From: Bacteroidota bacterium
GTDB lineage: Bacteria; Bacteroidota; Bacteroidia; Chitinophagales; Saprospiraceae
Direction: 5' to 3'
NCBI GenBank assembly: GCA_024642665.1
Contig: JAHEAR010000002.1
Coordinates: 8,689-72,688, forward strand
Length of the DNA stretch: 64,000 bases
Of the stretch, positions 42,027 to 52,900 are shown piece by piece. A program made the position numbers and the translations under genes. Every line of letters starts with the position of its first letter. Within the stretch, counting starts at the first letter, position 1. The notes under the pieces were generated by a model. That model ran no database searches. It was not told where the DNA came from and saw nothing but the letters and a program-made list of their open reading frames with translations.

Positions 42027-42821
42027 ATGATCAGGTCAGGATTTGGATTGTTTATACTATTGGTACTGCTCAGCGTGAATATGGGATGCAATACCAGAAT
42101 TGAAGGTTGTCTCGACTTGAATGCGGCCAATTTTGATTTTGAAGCTGAGCGATCCTGTGATGATTGTTGTAAGTATCCTTCCGCTATTCTTTCCCTGACC
42201 CAAAAATGGAACGCTGACAATTTTTCCAATGAGGATACTTTATATGACGGGCAGGGGCAAAAGTATTTAATTATTGATTTAAAATATTTTCTTTCTTCCT
42301 GGGCCTGGCAAGACAGCGATGGAAAAATCTATACGGTGGACTCTGTGACTGCAACCTGTGGGACAGAAGATTTGACGTATACGCCAGATATGATAACTGC
42401 AGATTCCAGGAAGTTTTCATACGCATTAGGGCCTATACGCAGGTCCCCAATCACGGACTCACTTTCCATGGTATTTGGATTGGTTGAAGATTTTAGTTGC
42501 CTTGATCCAACCAATAAAGCTACCCCTGCAAATCTTACAGAAAACAGCCCCCTTTGGAATAAGCAAACTGGTTTATTGGAAACCTTAAGATTAGTCCTTC
42601 AGCGTAATTTTGAAACTGTAACTTTTGATACGATCTTCTTAACTACAAAAGTCGATTTTCGCTATGCCTACGCACGGGAATTCCGGGCCGGCAAAAATGA
42701 TACATTTGCCCTGGCAGTTGATTACGCCCAATGGTTTCAGGATGTCAGCGTGGCGAATTTGGCATCCTTTCCCATTTCTATCGAGAATCACCTGTCCGGC
42801 AGCATCACACCGACAAATTGA
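42027..42821 (+). CDS. Divergent MbnP-like lipoprotein
   Basis: A 264-aa lipoprotein (signal …LSVNMGC). The mature N-terminus has the DxNAxNF-type motif GCLDLNAANFDFEAE followed by CDDCC. The rest looks like a diverged MbnP domain: an FGL…D…DP…NL segment then SPLWNKQTG, corresponding to the fGiGv…DP…pLs…yW…tG stretch of MbnP. It retains tryptophans near the position that matures in MbnP. Gene order with a clear MbnP and MbnH supports the call; sequence alone is suggestive. Confidence 0.6.
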   Translation: MIRSGFGLFILLVLLSVNMGCNTRIEGCLDLNAANFDFEAERSCDDCCKYPSAILSLTQKWNADNFSNEDTLYDGQGQKYLIIDLKYFLSSWAWQDSDGKIYTVDSVTATCGTEDLTYTPDMITADSRKFSYALGPIRRSPITDSLSMVFGLVEDFSCLDPTNKATPANLTENSPLWNKQTGLLETLRLVLQRNFETVTFDTIFLTTKVDFRYAYAREFRAGKNDTFALAVDYAQWFQDVSVANLASFPISIENHLSGSITPTN

Positions 42822-42884
42822 CAATTGTCAGACAAAACAAAAAGACACGCCTGCCGTTTATTAAATACACTATATATACCATCC

Positions 42885-43631
42885 ATGAAAAACATACTTA
42901 TACTCTTTACTTTATTAGGCTTAGTCGCTGCTTCATCCTGCAAAAAGGATGATGAGACTACCTATGGCACTTTGACGATCAATGTCAAAGCCGTTTATGA
43001 TAATGAGCCATTACAAACCTTTACCACCTTTCCTTTTAACAATGGGCAGCAAATTCAATTTAGCCTGATGAGCCTTATGCTTTCAGATATTAACCTTTAT
43101 GCCCAATCCAACACTATTCAAATAAGTGATATTCAATTGGCGGACATGAGTTTTGACAATCTAGCAGCCGCAGAAAAAGGGTACACCATCAAGTCTATGA
43201 ATATTCCTACCGGAAGTTATTCCGGGATTCAGTTTGGTATAGGGGTTCCTTCCGATCTGAATGCAATGACGCCTGCTGATTTCCCATCCGCCAGTCCGTT
43301 AAGTAAGTCAACCTATTACTGGATTCCCTGGAGTAGTTATATTTTTTCAAAAACAGAAGGGAAATTGGACACCGCGGGGACTGGCACATTAGATCTTGCT
43401 TTTGCGCTTCATACTGGTTCTGATGAGCTTTACAGGGGCGGATATGATGCCGCCATCCCAATTGTGATTGAAGATCAAAAAGACACCCAACTTGATATTG
43501 TGATTGATTATAAGGCGCTATTGGCAGGTGTAGACATTCAATCCAATCCCCTAAATCATAATCCGCAAGACATCGTCACCATCACTGCTATGGTTAATAA
43601 TTATGTCAGTGCAATAACTCTTCGTCATTAA
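42885..43631 (+). CDS. MbnP-family copper-binding lipoprotein
   Basis: About 249 aa from the ATG at 42885, with a lipoprotein signal (LGLVAASSC). The domain matches MbnP: beta strands, IQFGIGVPSDLNAM…FPSASPLSKSTYYWIPWSSYIFSK, then HTGSDELYRG. In characterised MbnP, one tryptophan is oxidised to kynurenine by MbnH to complete a copper site; here YYWIPWSSY holds the candidate tryptophans. The start upstream in the ORF track lacks a signal peptide. Its neighbour is the MbnH-type peroxidase, 9 bp downstream. Confidence 0.78.
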   Translation: MKNILILFTLLGLVAASSCKKDDETTYGTLTINVKAVYDNEPLQTFTTFPFNNGQQIQFSLMSLMLSDINLYAQSNTIQISDIQLADMSFDNLAAAEKGYTIKSMNIPTGSYSGIQFGIGVPSDLNAMTPADFPSASPLSKSTYYWIPWSSYIFSKTEGKLDTAGTGTLDLAFALHTGSDELYRGGYDAAIPIVIEDQKDTQLDIVIDYKALLAGVDIQSNPLNHNPQDIVTITAMVNNYVSAITLRH

Positions 43632-43640
43632 TAGCTTAGG

Positions 43641-44753
43641 ATGAAGTTTGGATATGGGAAATTATTTATAGGGTATGGAATACTGTTAATGATTTTATTC
43701 CAAGGCTGTCAGGATACGATCAATATCCCGACAGATCCTGATAATGACCTGACTTCAATTCCCTATAATCCTGTTCTTTATCAGCCCATTATTCCGGTTG
43801 GGTTTCCTGCCATGGAACAGCCGGCGGAAAACCTCATGACCAATGCCGGGATTCAATTGGGGCGAAAGCTCTTTTACGATCCAATCCTCTCGGTGGATAG
43901 TTCGGTTTCCTGTGCTTCCTGTCATTTACCTGAATTATCATTTACCGATGGGCTATCCAGAAGTCAAGGGGTGAATGGTACTACTGCCAGAGGGGCCATG
44001 AGTTTACTCGATGCTGGGTTTCACAACATCCGGTTTTTCTGGGATGGTCGTGCAGCTACGCTTGAAGAACAAGCACATTTACCTGTTGAAGATCCGATTG
44101 AAATGGGAGAAATGTGGCCAGAAGTAGAAGCAAAATTAAAAGCTCACCCCACTTATCCGTCAGATTTCAGAAAGGCTTTTGGCATTGAAAGCAAAACCAT
44201 GATCAATAAAGATCTGGCTACTAAAGCCATCGCCCAATTTGAAAGAAGCATAGTTTCCAGTGGAAAATCTCGCTATGATCGATTTGTTCGTGGGGAGATA
44301 TTTCTAGAGGATAATGAATACACGGGTTATCTGATGTATTTCAATTTCGACCAATCCCTTCCGGATGCACAATGCGGACATTGCCACAATGCTCCGCTTT
44401 TTGGCGGGGAGGATTTCCTTAATAATGGTTTACAGGCATCTCCGGACTTAATAAGTTTTGCAGACAAAGGCTTAGGTATGGTTACCGGAAATATTAGCGA
44501 CAATGGAAAGTTTAAAGTGCCTTCCCTGAGAAATATTGCTTTGACAGCACCCTTTATGCATACTGGCCAGTTTGCTACCTTAGAAGAAGTCATTGAACAC
44601 TATGATAGTGGAGGTCTGGATTCTCCCAATAAAAGTTCATTACTTCAACCGTTACATCTTACAGAAAGTCAGAAATCTGATCTTTTGGCATTCATTTTGA
44701 CGCTTACGGATACCACGATACTTACAAATCCGGATTACCAAAATCCTTTTTAG
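43641..44753 (+). CDS. Diheme cytochrome c peroxidase, MbnH/MauG-type
   Basis: A 370-aa lipoprotein (signal …MILFQGC) with two c-type heme sites, CASCH at 91-95 and CGHCH at 245-249, and the family motifs RFFWDGRAATLEEQ (Trp134) and LTAPFMHTGQF. This is the bacterial CCP/MauG family. Next to an MbnP gene, the likely role is MbnH: oxidising a tryptophan of MbnP to kynurenine in the periplasm. A plain peroxidase role is the alternative. Confidence 0.85.
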   Translation: MKFGYGKLFIGYGILLMILFQGCQDTINIPTDPDNDLTSIPYNPVLYQPIIPVGFPAMEQPAENLMTNAGIQLGRKLFYDPILSVDSSVSCASCHLPELSFTDGLSRSQGVNGTTARGAMSLLDAGFHNIRFFWDGRAATLEEQAHLPVEDPIEMGEMWPEVEAKLKAHPTYPSDFRKAFGIESKTMINKDLATKAIAQFERSIVSSGKSRYDRFVRGEIFLEDNEYTGYLMYFNFDQSLPDAQCGHCHNAPLFGGEDFLNNGLQASPDLISFADKGLGMVTGNISDNGKFKVPSLRNIALTAPFMHTGQFATLEEVIEHYDSGGLDSPNKSSLLQPLHLTESQKSDLLAFILTLTDTTILTNPDYQNPF

Positions 44754-45034
44754 GCTTTTATAAGCCCCTTTATCTGAGTTTATTTCCAAAATTTTTTGAT
44801 AAACTTTCAGACTCCTCTTGGTATATATTTCACAAAATTTATCAAAAAAAATCATGTACTAATACATTATATACTGCTATACAGTTAATTACAGATTAAC
44901 TAATATCTGTATATATTTAATTTACCTGTAACAAATAAGCATTTTTGTACTTGTTTAGGGCTTCAGATGTCCCGATAATTGTATCATCAAATAAAGAGAT
45001 ACAGATCGGGTAGAAGTACCGGATTCAAATTTAG

Positions 45035-45102
45035 ATATGTTCATGGGATTATAATTCTGATGGATAGAAGGTTGCCTCCCGGCAACTTTCTGTCCTCTTT
45101 TT
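45035..45102 (+). ncRNA. short-RNA or attenuator-like unit A
   Basis: The 22-bp block ATATGTTCATGGGATTATAATT (45035-45056) is followed after 5 nt by a 15-bp stem, GGATAGAAGGTTGCC / GGCAACTTTCTGTCC with a TCCC loop (two wobble pairs), then TCTTTTT. This is a strong intrinsic terminator. The identical block recurs 102 bp downstream before another hairpin of different sequence. It could be an sRNA with a shared seed, a leader attenuator, or a promoter-like site; function unknown. Confidence 0.5.
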
Positions 45103-45136
45103 AAAAATCTTTTCAGACATCTCTAAAATATCAAGA

Positions 45137-45201
45137 ATATGTTCATGGGATTATAATTTGTAAAGCTGGGTAGTTCTGAAGTGAACCTCCCAGCTTTTTT
45201 T
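45137..45201 (+). ncRNA. short-RNA or attenuator-like unit B
   Basis: The same 22-bp block (45137-45158), then after 3 nt the hairpin AAAGCTGGG…GTTC/GAAC…CCCAGCTTT with a small internal loop, running into TTTTTTT. The stem sequence is unrelated to that of unit A, so the block and the terminator shape are what is kept. Confidence 0.5.
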
Positions 45202-45501: not shown

Positions 45502-48500
45502 ATGAAGTTAACCACACTACTTTTTTTATTTGTTTCCTTTCTTATTCCGTTTAGTGCTTCCGCGCAGCTTCCTGATGGGTCCGAGGCGCCTGATTGGACA
45601 CTTACAGATATCAATAACGTCGAACACAATCTGTATACCCTTTTGGATCAGGGTAAAATGGTAGTTATTGAATTTTCTGCTACCTGGTGTGGCCCCTGCT
45701 GGAATTATATGCAGACAGGTGCCCTCGAGCAGTTCTGGGATGAACATGGTCCCAATGGCGATGATACCGCCCAGGCATTTTATATTGAGGCAGACCAATC
45801 CACAGGAATGGATGATCTTCTCGGACTGACACCTTCATCACAAGGCAACTGGGTCGCTGCTATTCCTTTCCCGCTAATTGACCTACAGGTAGGAGAAAAT
45901 ACCGATAATGATTACAACATCGGCTATTACCCTACCTTATTTGCTGTCTGTTCCGATAAAAAGTTATATGAATTAGGTCAGGTCGGCGCGGATGAGTGGT
46001 CTGAGTTTATCGAAAGTTGTATGCTTGCAGGATCGGTAGAAAGTATCGAACAAGCTGTTTGCTATGGGGATGGAGCTGTTGAGTTAGATGTTACGGGAGG
46101 TGTAAGCCCTATAGATTATGACTGGAGTGATGGTTCAAGTCAGCCATCCCTTCAAAATGTTGGGGCCGGTGTCTACAGTGTTACAGTAACGGAGGCCAAT
46201 GGGAAATCTTTTATACTTGAAGATATCGTGATTGAAGGATCAGACACGCCATTAGAATTGGCAAGTGCTGATATAGATCCGGCACTCTGCTTTGAATCAG
46301 CAACCGGTGCTGTAAGCATCGAAATTGACGGCGCCATTGAACCGGTCGAATATGATTGGAGCAATGGAGATCAAACCCAGAATATTGAGAACCTGGTGGC
46401 TGGCCAATATGATGTAGTGGCGACTGACGCCAATGGATGTTTATTTGAAGATTCATTTGTTGTCACAGAACCTGAAGAATTGGTGGCTTCCTATGAAACC
46501 ACGCCAGAATATTGTGATCAGGGTGATGGTTCTATTCTACTGGATATTGATGGCGGAGTAGGTAATTATTCTGTTTACGCTTCTGAAGGCGATGTCCAGG
46601 ATAATCTGATTTATAATCTGTACGCAGGCAATATCACAGCCACTATTGAAGATGGAAACGGTTGTATTTGGGAAGAAAATGTTGATATAGAATTCGTGGC
46701 CCAACATGAGTTGTTTTTTACGCCGGATCCCGAAATCAATTGTATTTCACCTTCCACAATAGTTGAAGGATTTATAACAGGAGGGTTCGATGATTATGAA
46801 TACGAATGGTCAACTGTCAATGGTCACATAGTTGGAGAAACAGATGGCTCATCCATAGAAGTTGATCAGGAAGGAGATTATGATCTTGCGGTGTATGATA
46901 TATTCAGCGGATGTACTGCAGTGAGTTCTGTCTACGTAACCTCCACGGCAGATCTGCCGGAGGTAAGTGCCGGGGCTGATGCACCCATAACTTGTGAAAT
47001 CACTGAGGCCATTCTGCAAGGTACCGGTGATTCTGAAAATGTGATTTCATGGACCACGACGGATGGGCATATTGTTTCCGGAGGTGATACTTATACCCCT
47101 ACAGTAGATGAACCAGGTACCTATGTGATTGAAGTTTTAAATCCAAACAATGCGTGTGCAAATGTGGATACGGTAATCGTCTTAGATCAAATAGCTCCGG
47201 CAGATGCACAATTCCAATATCAAACCAGTGGACTTACAATAGCTACTACTGATATTTCAACAGGAAGCAATTTGTCCGGATGGGCATGGACTTTTGGCGA
47301 TGGCAATTCCTCTAATGATCAAAATCCTCAATACACCTATGCCGCTGAAGGAAATTATGAAGTATGTCTGAGTGTTCAAAATGGCTGCGGCGAAAGTAAT
47401 ATTTGTCAAACCTTAAATGTCATGATTGATGGAAGTACCATCAGTGTACTGGAAACGGTGCAGGATGTCCTTTGCCATAGTGGCAGTACCGGAAGTATTA
47501 CCTTAATTGTAAATGGTGGTTCAGGCAACTATACGTTCTCCTGGACAGGGCCGGATGGTCAAACTTACGCTACACAATCTATCAATGACTTGCCGGCAGG
47601 AATCTATCAATTGGAAATAACAGATGACATGGGTAATACATTTACCACTGAGTACACGGTCAACGAACCTACTCCTTTGGTACTTATTGGTTCAACGGTG
47701 ACTGATAATCTTTGCTTTGGAGATCTCAATGGTGTTGTTTCTGTTGACATTGCAGGTGGCGTAGGACCTTATTTATATTCTTTTAATCAGGGTCCAAATC
47801 AAATGGAAAATACCATTGGTTCATTACCGGCAGGCATAGTCGAAGGTATCATTACAGATGCCAACGGTTGTCAATTTTCTGCTGGTCCTTATTCCATTCA
47901 GGAGCCACTGCAAGTGGAAAATATCACCACGGTTAAATCTGTAAGTTGTTTTGGAGATACAGATGGATCTGCCGTGATCCAGACGCAAGGTGGCGTAGCA
48001 CCATATAGTTATCTATGGAATATTGGAGGAGTAATTCTCCCGGAAATCGGTGATCTCGCTCCGGGTACCTATACCTGCGCTATTACCGATCATAATGGTT
48101 GTGAAAGTGAAGTTTCCATCGATGTGATAGAGCCGGGTATTTTGGATGTAGCCAGTGTTTTAGCGGTTGATGCCACCGGTATTGAGCAAAATAACGGAAG
48201 TATCAGTATTGAAATTACCGGCGGAACAGCACCTTATTCGATATCATGGAGTAATGGCGCTACCGGATCCTCAATTGAAGGACTGGTACCGGGTGAATAT
48301 ACGTACTCCGTTATTGATGCAAATGGTTGTTCCCTTGGAACATCAAACCCAATTCTTATCAATGGGGTAGTGGCAACCACCATCGTACCATGGGCTGAGT
48401 TTATTACCGTGACTCCTAACCCATCTACAGGAGATGTAAAAGTAACCTGGGAGGGATTGACTAGTGATCAGGGTACCATTACACTGACGACCATGCAAGG

Positions 48501-48639
48501 CAAACGTCTTCAGGTGGAACGCGTAAATTCAAGTGCGGGTACATGGGATTTATCTCAGTACAATCTTGCCAGTGGAGTTTATATTATCTTATTCGAAATG
48601 AATAAGGAGGCAGTTCCGTATAAGCTGATAGTCCTTTAA
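45502..48639 (+). CDS. T9SS surface protein: thioredoxin fold, SprB-type repeats, PKD domain
   Basis: A 1045-aa exported protein. It has a signal peptide (…FSASAQ), then a TlpA-like thioredoxin domain with an intact active site (EFSATWCGPCWNYMQ, about residues 50-65). About seven SprB-type repeats follow (pattern CFGDxDGSxxIxxxGGxxPYxYxW…GxYxxxITDxNGC), one PKD domain (WAWTFGDGNSSNDQNPQYTY) and a T9SS type-A tail (VTPNPSTGDVKV … SGVYIILFE). The fold order is unusual: redox domain at the N-terminus of an adhesin-like repeat protein. Probably cell-surface. Confidence 0.88.
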   Translation: MKLTTLLFLFVSFLIPFSASAQLPDGSEAPDWTLTDINNVEHNLYTLLDQGKMVVIEFSATWCGPCWNYMQTGALEQFWDEHGPNGDDTAQAFYIEADQSTGMDDLLGLTPSSQGNWVAAIPFPLIDLQVGENTDNDYNIGYYPTLFAVCSDKKLYELGQVGADEWSEFIESCMLAGSVESIEQAVCYGDGAVELDVTGGVSPIDYDWSDGSSQPSLQNVGAGVYSVTVTEANGKSFILEDIVIEGSDTPLELASADIDPALCFESATGAVSIEIDGAIEPVEYDWSNGDQTQNIENLVAGQYDVVATDANGCLFEDSFVVTEPEELVASYETTPEYCDQGDGSILLDIDGGVGNYSVYASEGDVQDNLIYNLYAGNITATIEDGNGCIWEENVDIEFVAQHELFFTPDPEINCISPSTIVEGFITGGFDDYEYEWSTVNGHIVGETDGSSIEVDQEGDYDLAVYDIFSGCTAVSSVYVTSTADLPEVSAGADAPITCEITEAILQGTGDSENVISWTTTDGHIVSGGDTYTPTVDEPGTYVIEVLNPNNACANVDTVIVLDQIAPADAQFQYQTSGLTIATTDISTGSNLSGWAWTFGDGNSSNDQNPQYTYAAEGNYEVCLSVQNGCGESNICQTLNVMIDGSTISVLETVQDVLCHSGSTGSITLIVNGGSGNYTFSWTGPDGQTYATQSINDLPAGIYQLEITDDMGNTFTTEYTVNEPTPLVLIGSTVTDNLCFGDLNGVVSVDIAGGVGPYLYSFNQGPNQMENTIGSLPAGIVEGIITDANGCQFSAGPYSIQEPLQVENITTVKSVSCFGDTDGSAVIQTQGGVAPYSYLWNIGGVILPEIGDLAPGTYTCAITDHNGCESEVSIDVIEPGILDVASVLAVDATGIEQNNGSISIEITGGTAPYSISWSNGATGSSIEGLVPGEYTYSVIDANGCSLGTSNPILINGVVATTIVPWAEFITVTPNPSTGDVKVTWEGLTSDQGTITLTTMQGKRLQVERVNSSAGTWDLSQYNLASGVYIILFEMNKEAVPYKLIVL

Positions 48640-49907: not shown

Positions 49908-49915
49908 TAGTTTTA
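49908..49915 (+). promoter_or_regulatory. -7-like box TAGTTTTA next to the large T9SS gene
   Basis: Seven of eight TAnnTTTG positions and only 4 nt before the ATG (49920). TTTA at 49887-49890 gives a 17-bp spacer. Confidence 0.42.
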
Positions 49916-49919
49916 TCCC

Positions 49920-52900
49920 ATGATAGCAACTCATCTTCGCAGGGCATCCCTATGCCTTAAATACTGCTTCGCCATTTGTTTGGCAGCCTTTTCCATCTGC
50001 TCCCTCAATGGGCAAAATGCTGAAAAGTACTATACTGCAGAAAAGTCATTTGCTGTTAAACTGGGTACCACCAAACCACTTCATCAAACCGCTCAGGCGA
50101 TTGCTACAGATGCTGATAAATCAAAGGGCCTGAAGGATCAGAAACCCAGCTTTGTCCCAAATTTTGGAGGGCGCAGACAAGAGATTATGCATCATCCGGA
50201 TGCACTTCCCAAAGGGCGTGACCCACTATTCGATCCATTTTCTTCAAGGTCTGTGATGACGGAGATAGTACCAATAGTCAATGTTGCAGGCATTTCGTCA
50301 ACGGAAGTTGGAGCAGGGGTTCCTGATGTCAGCGGAGATATTGGTAAAGACTTTTATGTAGAAATTGTCAATCAGACCTATTTCAAAGTGTATGATAAAA
50401 CAGGTGCTCCGGTGAGTGGGTTGATTGCAGCCAATTCCATCTGGAGTCAGGTTGGCCAATCATCTTTTGGCGATCCTATTATTTTGTATGATCAGGAAGT
50501 GGATCGTTGGTTGTTAACTGAATTTCCGACCACTAACAGAGTACTTGTTGCTATTTCTCACACCAGCGATCCTCTGGGAAGTTGGGATGCCTATGTGTTT
50601 CAAACACCCCGTTTTCCTGATTTTCCAAAATACGGTATCTGGGGTGATGCTTATTATCTGACCGCAAATGAATCCGGTAATTCATTTCCAATCTATGCCA
50701 TCAACCGGGAAGATATTCTTGCCGGAGAAGATAATGCAAGATTACAAAGACTGACAACGCCTAAAGTTGGGGGTGTTTTTTTTGAAGTGGGTCAGCCCAT
50801 TGATTGGGATGGCATGACACCTCCCCCTGCCGGCAGTCCGGGAATGGTCGTTAAATTGAATGACGATGACTGGGGGCAAACGAATACCGATGAGATATTA
50901 CTCCATAAAATCACAATTGACTGGGACAATGCAGTGAATTCAAATATTGAAATCATTTCCCTGCCGACTGCACCTTATGATACCGATGGATGTCAAACAG
51001 AAAATACAGGAGGATTTTCCTGTATTCCGCAGCCTAACGGACAAGGAATTGATGGGGGCGAATGGATTATTACCAATAAAGCACCTTACCGAAATTTTGG
51101 AACACATGAGTCTTTTGTGATGTCTTTTATGGTAGATGTTACCGGTGATGATGTGGCAGGAATACGATGGATCGAATTGAGAAAAACACCAACTGAAGAT
51201 TGGCATATTTTTCAGGAAGGCACAGTGGGCTCTGATGATGGTATCCATCGATTTCAGCCGTCCATCTCAATCGATGGAAAAGGAAATATCGGTTTGGCCT
51301 ATGGTGTATCCGGACCAAATAAGTTTCCCTCGCTAAGATTTACGGGACGATATTCAACAGATCCACTGGGAGAAATGAGCATTAAAGAGTATGAATTTGC
51401 TACCGGTAAAAGAAGTCAGGGCTCTGATCGATACGGCGATTATTTTTCTATGTCGGTTGATCCGACAGATGATGCAACTTTTTGGTTTGCCGGTCAATAT
51501 CTGCCCTTAGGCAATAACTGGGGAACAAAGATTGTGGCATTTAAGGCCAGTAGAGATACAATTGATGTTTTTCCAACAAAGTTAGCTTCACCGATAAACG
51601 ATGCCTTACTTGGAGCTCAGGAAGTAGAATTTTCAGTATTGAACAGAGGACTTGAAACCGTTTTTACTTTGCCCTTAGGCTATCAGTTCAATAATGGTCC
51701 TTGGATCACTGAGGATCCCGTCATCGACAGTCTGCCGGTGGATCAGGAGTTCACTTTCAAATTTGTAACGCCTTTCGACATCGACCTTCCGGGTTCCTAT
51801 CCCCTTCGAATTGCTACCTTTCTTGATGTTGACAACAACAAGAAAAATGACACCTTGTCTTATGTCATTACAAAGTTTGGACTTAGGGATATCGGACTTG
51901 AATATGTAGTACCTGCCAATGACGATCTGATTTGTACCGACATGTCAGATATTTCTGTTCGCATTAAAAACGTTGGTATCGATACAATTAAGCAAATCGT
52001 ATTTAAACTATCCTCGTTTTCAATTCCTGTAGATTCTTTTCAATGGACTGGTTCCTTAGCTTTCGGAGAGGAAACTATCTTTTCTTTTCCTGCCGTAATA
52101 GCAGAAGGCCCAAATGATTTTTCGCTGGACATCGACACGTTGAATTTTATTTATGTTGATGATCAACCTGCGAACAATCAAATAAATTTTTCAGTGAATG
52201 GCCATCCTGAAGGATTTCCAGTAACATTGGAATTCACGACGGACAAATATCCAAATGAAACTTCCTGGAAATTATTTGATAGCGATGATAATATTATCGC
52301 CTCCGCGGGGCCTTTTATGGAAGCGCAAACCACTACGGTCACGACATTTTGCCTTGATGAAGAAGCGTGCTATACTTTTACCGTGTATGATGCTTTAGGC
52401 GATGGGATGTCTTCTCAGGGCATCGTTGGTGATTTTGAAATATTCAATGAACAGGGCGTTTTATTAGCCGATTTGGAAAAGCCAAATTTTGGCGATGAAT
52501 CGTCCAGTCATTTCTGTCTCACCGGCCAGTGCATGCTTTCCGTACAAGTTGGGGTAGCTCAGGAATCGACTCCCGGAGCAGGTGATGCGATGGTTATCGC
52601 GGAAACCGAAAATAGCCTTGGCAACATTCGCTTCAGCCTTGACAATGGAGTAACCTTCCAGACATCTTCCATGTTTTCCAATTTAGCACAAGGCATTTAC
52701 ACCCTTATCGCATTAGACGATGCAGGATGCGCGGACACGACTGCATTTGAAATTGTAGCCTGTAATCTAATCGTAGAAATAACTACCAAGCCTGCAAACA
52801 ATGGAGACATTGGTGAAATACACATCTCCGTCACCGGTCAGAACGGTCCCCTTCAGTATAGTATACAAGGTGCGCCTTTTGTTTCAGACTCCTTCTTTGT

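Follow-up and report, generated by a model that had tools for sequence, protein, structure and literature searches.

A predicted small RNA of Saprospiraceae carries repeated segments complementary to the start regions of some SprB-repeat adhesin genes

A 22-bp block that occurs twice in a 64,000-nucleotide stretch of a Saprospiraceae genome (the window) is the most conserved part of what we predict, by comparison of sequences, to be a previously undescribed small-RNA gene present in most members of this family. With moderate confidence, we read its product as an antisense RNA with repeated seeds, which would pair with the start regions of mRNAs for SprB-repeat adhesins of the T9SS and block translation initiation. 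In the proposed mechanism, this Saprospiraceae-specific non-coding RNA gene would be transcribed from one sigma-A promoter into a transcript of ~0.2–0.6 kb that displays an antisense segment of ~20 nt in at least two copies, each with a private hairpin behind it; the last hairpin would terminate transcription. The segment, 5′-UGUUCAUGGGAUUAUAAUUUGUUAG-3′, would be antisense to an A/U-rich translation-initiation region (TIR) ending in AUG. Our literature search found no paper on such an RNA in Saprospiraceae and none on an sRNA controlling SprB.

A block repeated in tandem across Saprospiraceae

The two copies in the window (Table 1) are exact over 22 bp and lie 102 bp apart, as a preliminary description of this DNA had stated, and shuffles of the window gave no match to the block even when three mismatches were allowed. 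The stems that follow differ, also as described, the two hairpins being of unrelated sequence. Each hairpin had been called a terminator; hairpins do stand at both copies, and a long T-run directly follows only the second. Hairpin 1 is present, with a larger stem (15 bp) than first noted. It has TCTTTTTAAA, a weak T-tract in the window that is mostly missing in relatives. Small private hairpins similar to the one 5′ of block 1 also occur in several other clusters; the mean folding z of the 60 nt upstream of the block is just −1.06, so this 5′ hairpin is in general weakly supported.

Table 1 Features of the RNA locus and its neighbors in the window
Feature	Position	Strand	Details
Di-haem cytochrome c peroxidase (CCP_MauG), upstream neighbor	43641..44753	+	After two MbnP genes
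Predicted −33 element	44942..44953	+	TTTTTGTACTTG; fits family consensus TTTTTGTCTTTG; kept in same-genus genome
Predicted −7 box	44974..44987	+	GATAATTGTATCAT; exactly 20 nt past the −33 element; identical variant in L085
Predicted non-coding transcript	44987..45201	+	~215 nt, two block-hairpin units; from conserved segment, promoter, and terminator
Small 5′ hairpin, 5′ of block 1	45009..45020	+	GGTA-GAAG-TACC; from sequence
Conserved block copy 1	45035..45056	+	ATATGTTCATGGGATTATAATT
Private hairpin 1	45062..45095	+	15-bp stem (45062–45076 with 45081–45095), loop TCCC; internal, weak T-tract
Conserved block copy 2	45137..45158	+	ATATGTTCATGGGATTATAATT
Private hairpin 2 with TTTTTTT, intrinsic terminator	45162..45201	+	AAAGCTGGG...CCCAGCTTT; hairpin 45162–45197, running into T-run 45195–45201
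SprB-repeat T9SS gene, downstream	45502..48639	+	SprB E 9e-53; Por_Secre_tail

The search of the genome and its relatives that the preliminary description had proposed found a 17-nt core of the block (at most one mismatch) in 249 of 298 Saprospiraceae genomes, representing 100 of 111 genera; a reversed-word control gave almost no matches in genomes of this family. The rest of the phylum yielded about a dozen scattered single core matches in ~390 genomes, which is near chance. When named genome contigs were scanned with an exact 19-mer, nearly all of the matches listed came from Saprospiraceae, Saprospirales, Lewinella, Phaeodactylibacter, or Flavilitoribacter. Among Saprospiraceae members without the exact block, a search for variants returned mostly three-mismatch matches at chance level, and these genera have therefore probably lost it. 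Copies are arranged in tandem on the same strand, usually two and up to seven, the latter as near-identical units at locus L194. Several clusters per genome occur; the window genome has a single one, at 45035–45201. On many contigs from metagenome-assembled genomes (MAGs), the cluster lies at the contig end with the break on its 3′ side, likely because of the repetitive SprB genes downstream.

Conserved segment and private hairpins

In a pooled set of 289 distinct copies from 156 clusters, conservation is limited to ~20 nt, positions −3 to +19 around the core; because the core itself served to retrieve the copies, values within it are biased upward and those of the flanks are not. Tabulation of what follows each copy, another check proposed at the outset, showed a hairpin nearly always, differing in sequence, with a T-tract normally on the last only. 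Relative to dinucleotide shuffles, the downstream hairpins have a mean z of −4.6 (92% below −2), and the hairpin regions of two random copies are 28% identical; structure is thus kept while sequence is free. The T-run has a median length of 1 after non-last hairpins (19% with five or more) and of 8 after last hairpins (82% with five or more).

A hairpin behind nearly every copy would also suit a 3′-end module, in which the block marks or modulates the adjacent intrinsic terminator or stabilizes RNA 3′ ends, and the phage copies on IMG/VR contigs, where block, hairpin, and T-tract directly follow phage genes, fit the same idea. We judge it improbable, as non-last hairpins usually lack a T-tract and, for most cellular copies, a separate promoter lies ~50 to 110 nt upstream of the first block.

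Six loci (L015, L066, L089, L108, L119, and L144) contain a second conserved stretch between units, AGATTGAGTTTT...AGTTGGTTTTC, possibly a structural subdomain in a subset of the RNAs. Four IMG/VR contigs (L172, L175, L177, and L180) each carry a single block-hairpin-T-tract module directly behind phage genes; in L175 and L180, which are related phages, the gene ahead of the module matches structural families of phages (head/tail, PHROGs). Copies of the host seed may be present in phages, a hint of viral exploitation of the circuit.

Each cluster as one predicted transcription unit

Most clusters have the promoter TTTTTGTCTTTG-N20-NATNTTTGTAT 5′ of the first block. Although spacers of 17 to 23 nt were allowed in the search, the spacer is exactly 20 in each of the best 70 clusters by score, and promoter scores upstream of the first block are well above those of a downstream control. 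The promoter agrees with the published Bacteroidota −33/−7 consensus, TTTG/TANNTTTG (PMC6847099). The same promoter type also drives other genes and is therefore a strong general promoter rather than one specific to the block RNA. From the predicted −7 box, transcription in the window is expected to start at ~44985–44988. The segment 44930–45200 is sharply conserved relative to the same-genus genome, and its flanks are not.

With a single promoter, exactly spaced, before the first block and a T-tract on the last hairpin only, each cluster is predicted to form one stand-alone transcription unit comprising several block-hairpin units, and we infer that this unit is expressed. The same arrangement speaks against the independent sibling RNAs of the preliminary description, whose more general idea of a small RNA with a conserved seed and private hairpins is supported by the family-wide conservation, the promoter, and the terminator. 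A further suggestion, that the TATAAT within the block could make it a promoter, was not borne out: the −33/−7 promoter lies 5′ of the block at exact spacing in most clusters, and TATAAT is not the Bacteroidota −7 sequence TANNTTTG (PMC6847099), for which reason a sigma-A promoter within the block was rejected. A leader peptide or small ORF (MFMGL*) was rejected as well, with variation equally low in all three frames and an open frame into block 1 in at most 25 of 104 cases, none of them consistent. Searches of Rfam 15 at gathering and permissive thresholds gave no match for the block RNA.

Multiple clusters in one genome and tandem expansion to as many as seven units (L194) are features expected of a DNA-level repeat or mobile element (REP/MITE or recombination site), an account we group here with that of a promoter core and consider very unlikely: copies always share one orientation and come with a promoter and terminator, the hairpin sequence is not conserved, the segment delimited by the same-genus pair resembles an RNA gene and lacks repeat ends, and the −33/−7 promoter is upstream of the block. 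REP/RAYT or MITE repeats in particular were rejected on the private hairpins (28% identity) and the same-orientation tandems.

Variant blocks occur in other RNAs. Loci L223 and L236 (G020:C111 and G002:C93), and also L282 (G014:C143), encode a different, larger noncoding RNA (ncRNA) that ends in a variant block, TTTCATGAGATTATGATTTGTTATTAGC, and a terminator; in L223 and L236 it is ~700 nt long, has the same promoter type, and occurs in tandem in the genome. A conserved near-perfect complement, GATCATAATCCCAT, lies ~130 nt upstream of the variant block, which suggests a long-range stem between GATCATAATCCCAT and TTTCATGAGATTATGATTTGTTATTAGC. This larger ncRNA had no Rfam match. At L279, L280, L284, and L286, longer intergenic arrays in which a GAGCTTTGAGAGGCTATCTACATACCA segment recurs contain more variant blocks (TTCATGAGATTATAATT...), each preceded by a hairpin; we read these as a wider RNA superfamily in the larger genomes.

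Neighboring genes

Of 109 upstream genes, 79 are co-directional with the cluster. The commonest upstream neighbor, at 26 of 156 clusters, is a di-haem peroxidase of the MauG/MbnH-like type that follows MbnP genes. In the window, 42027–44753 holds two MbnP-domain genes and then a MauG-type di-haem peroxidase (an MbnP/MbnH-like pair), an arrangement that recurs beside the RNA in many genera. Downstream, an SprB-repeat T9SS gene is the commonest neighbor, the window included.

As an alternative, the preliminary description had offered a 45502 leader with tandem attenuators, and in the window and at some other loci the downstream gene is indeed co-directional and T9SS-secreted. As a general function, attenuation fails on gene orientation, since 58 of 111 clusters have a convergent gene downstream (median distance there, 95 nt); moreover, the last terminator is very strong, and the only trace of an alternative antiterminator pairing is a weak signal from AATCCC (AATCYC), a potential intramolecular partner after hairpin 1 that was seen 35 times against 22.6 expected. 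Attenuation of the downstream gene thus retains hardly any probability.

Complementarity to the start codons of SprB-repeat genes

Start regions of all fetched loci were scanned against the block antisense. The 3′ half of the block with its extension (GGAT.TATAATTTGTTAG) proved antisense to a leader, CTAACAAATTAT-NN-ATCC, located just before the ATG of SprB-type genes. A direct search for the leader in 150 Saprospiraceae genomes gave 54 matches, 50 of them distinct and readable. Seventeen of these 50, among them 9 of the 11 exact ones, have the ATG of a long ORF 0 to 10 nt behind them, compared with none of 25 matches outside the family (Fisher p = 0.0004). The RNA lies 244 to 1094 nt upstream on the same strand at 12 start-codon loci; L166 and L333 agree in leader and block distances and could be a single site present in two collections. 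All eight target proteins tested contain SprB repeats. Leader matches at start codons also occur where no block is nearby, and such genes may be trans targets.

Pairing with the block is better for co-directional genes located up to 1.2 kb downstream than for the remaining genes (p = 0.001), strong TIR-block pairing being found for 13.6% of the former versus 2.1% of other TIRs (best, −23 kcal/mol); this comparison set is unbiased, its ncRNA loci having been picked before the SprB leader match was noticed. At three loci (L106, L327, and L330), CTAAC and the ATG are spaced exactly as in a perfect block antisense, and the block is therefore read as antisense to a start region, start codon included. 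The match of SprB leaders is chiefly to the 3′ half and extension; few of them (L330, L106, and L327) match the TGTTCATGG half. Because the TGTTCATGG half is as invariant as the 3′ half and yet so seldom matched, a further constraint probably acts on it.

In about a dozen lineages, the complement at the adhesin start codon suggests that the RNA controls the amount of adhesin made. Here, the segment would pair with the leader CUAACAAAUUAU-NN-AUCC-AUG of the SprB-repeat T9SS adhesin gene just downstream, most likely repressing its translation by occluding the initiation region. Bacteroidota mRNAs have no Shine–Dalgarno sequences and need start regions that are A-rich and unstructured (PMC6847099); occlusion of these regions by an A/U-rich antisense should therefore matter.

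Complementarity beyond chance holds for a subset of genomes and not for the window's own genes, and most clusters have no complementary gene adjoining. The preliminary description had seen a weak hint of base pairing at the start codon of a nearby T9SS gene. The idea was right in kind, the targets well supported by sequence being SprB-repeat genes of other species, and is not supported for the gene at 49920: ATCCCATGA does occur at its start codon (49915–49923), but its TIR ranks only 6th of 52 in duplex energy with the block, and the match alone is therefore no evidence. The 45502 SprB gene has no complementary leader, and its TIR ranks 24th of 52. The core antisense word ATAATCCCATGA has 36 non-block matches in the window genome; of the 34 that are readable, two precede a plausible start codon of a long ORF. 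These ORFs, at L382:1508 (+) and L388 (−), directly follow partial block antisense sequences (ACAATTATAATCGC-ATGA and ATTATCCC-ATGA) and are candidate trans targets. As regards pairing with rRNA, the window genome holds no 16S, and a search with the 17-mer complement of the block (at most one mismatch) gave nothing beyond the RNAs and scattered matches. In genomes whose clusters lack a complementary neighbor, that of the window included, the targets of the RNA would be unlinked.

Discussion

The main rival to antisense pairing is a protein-binding role, because the predicted accessibility of the block is not special (mean unpaired probability 0.42, versus 0.40 in shuffled blocks) and, within a locus, block and leader showed no clear compensatory changes. 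The RNA would then be a sponge comparable to CsrB for CsrA, its repeated single-stranded block sequestering an RNA-binding protein and its hairpins serving as scaffolds. Several identical copies per transcript, ~20-nt invariance that extends to the half not used in target pairing, and the degenerate, divergent block copies present in longer RNAs are all compatible with such a sponge. It is nonetheless unlikely: CsrA (PF02599) is absent from the relatives (0 of 25, with positive controls detected), 20 invariant nucleotides are long for a protein site, and the start-codon complementarity of the adjacent SprB genes would go unexplained.

Beyond antisense control of adjacent adhesin genes, we tentatively put forward a broader picture that may well prove too wide, in which tandem-seed riboregulators operate across Saprospiraceae. 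Their repeated segment would be a generic antisense to the start regions of Bacteroidota mRNAs without Shine–Dalgarno sequences; it would control T9SS adhesins both adjacent and in trans, expand by unit duplication, sit in larger ncRNAs, and, in copies made by phages behind their tail genes, act on the same circuit of the host. RNA regulators of Bacteroidota are little known outside Bacteroides. An element of ~20 nt that is nearly invariant over ~100 genera and antisense at adhesin start codons offers a testable candidate regulator, a search seed for targets, and insight into antisense regulation in the absence of Shine–Dalgarno pairing by ribosomes.

By its sequence, the block RNA appears to work like a base-pairing sRNA with repeated seeds. 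Among multi-copy seed sRNAs such as Listeria LhrC and OmrA/OmrB, a short seed is common to the copies or siblings and the remainder diverges. The block RNA likewise combines a short, conserved, shared seed with divergent remaining sequence; it differs in that its copies would lie in one transcript, its seed is A/U-rich and anti-start rather than CU-rich and anti-Shine–Dalgarno, and its lineage is unrelated (OmrA/OmrB are reviewed in PMC12692685). CsrB and RsmZ also repeat a single motif several times next to hairpins within one RNA, whereas the block motif is longer and, as far as predicted, not in hairpin loops, and CsrA is absent. In Bacteroides, cis-encoded antisense RNAs are reported to repress surface or polysaccharide loci (Cao et al. 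2016, cited in PMC9723704). The block RNA shares with them a place beside the surface-protein gene that it would control; it differs in not being on the opposite strand of its target, and its complementarity comes from a separate conserved block. Trans-encoded base-pairing sRNAs have been mapped in Bacteroides thetaiotaomicron (PMC7366714). The block RNA resembles these as a predicted discrete intergenic transcript with its own sigma-A promoter, an intrinsic terminator, and proposed pairing to mRNA 5′ regions; it has no sequence relation to them (no Rfam match) and is set apart by repeated identical seeds in each transcript, 20-nt invariance across the family, and a seed antisense to the initiation region.
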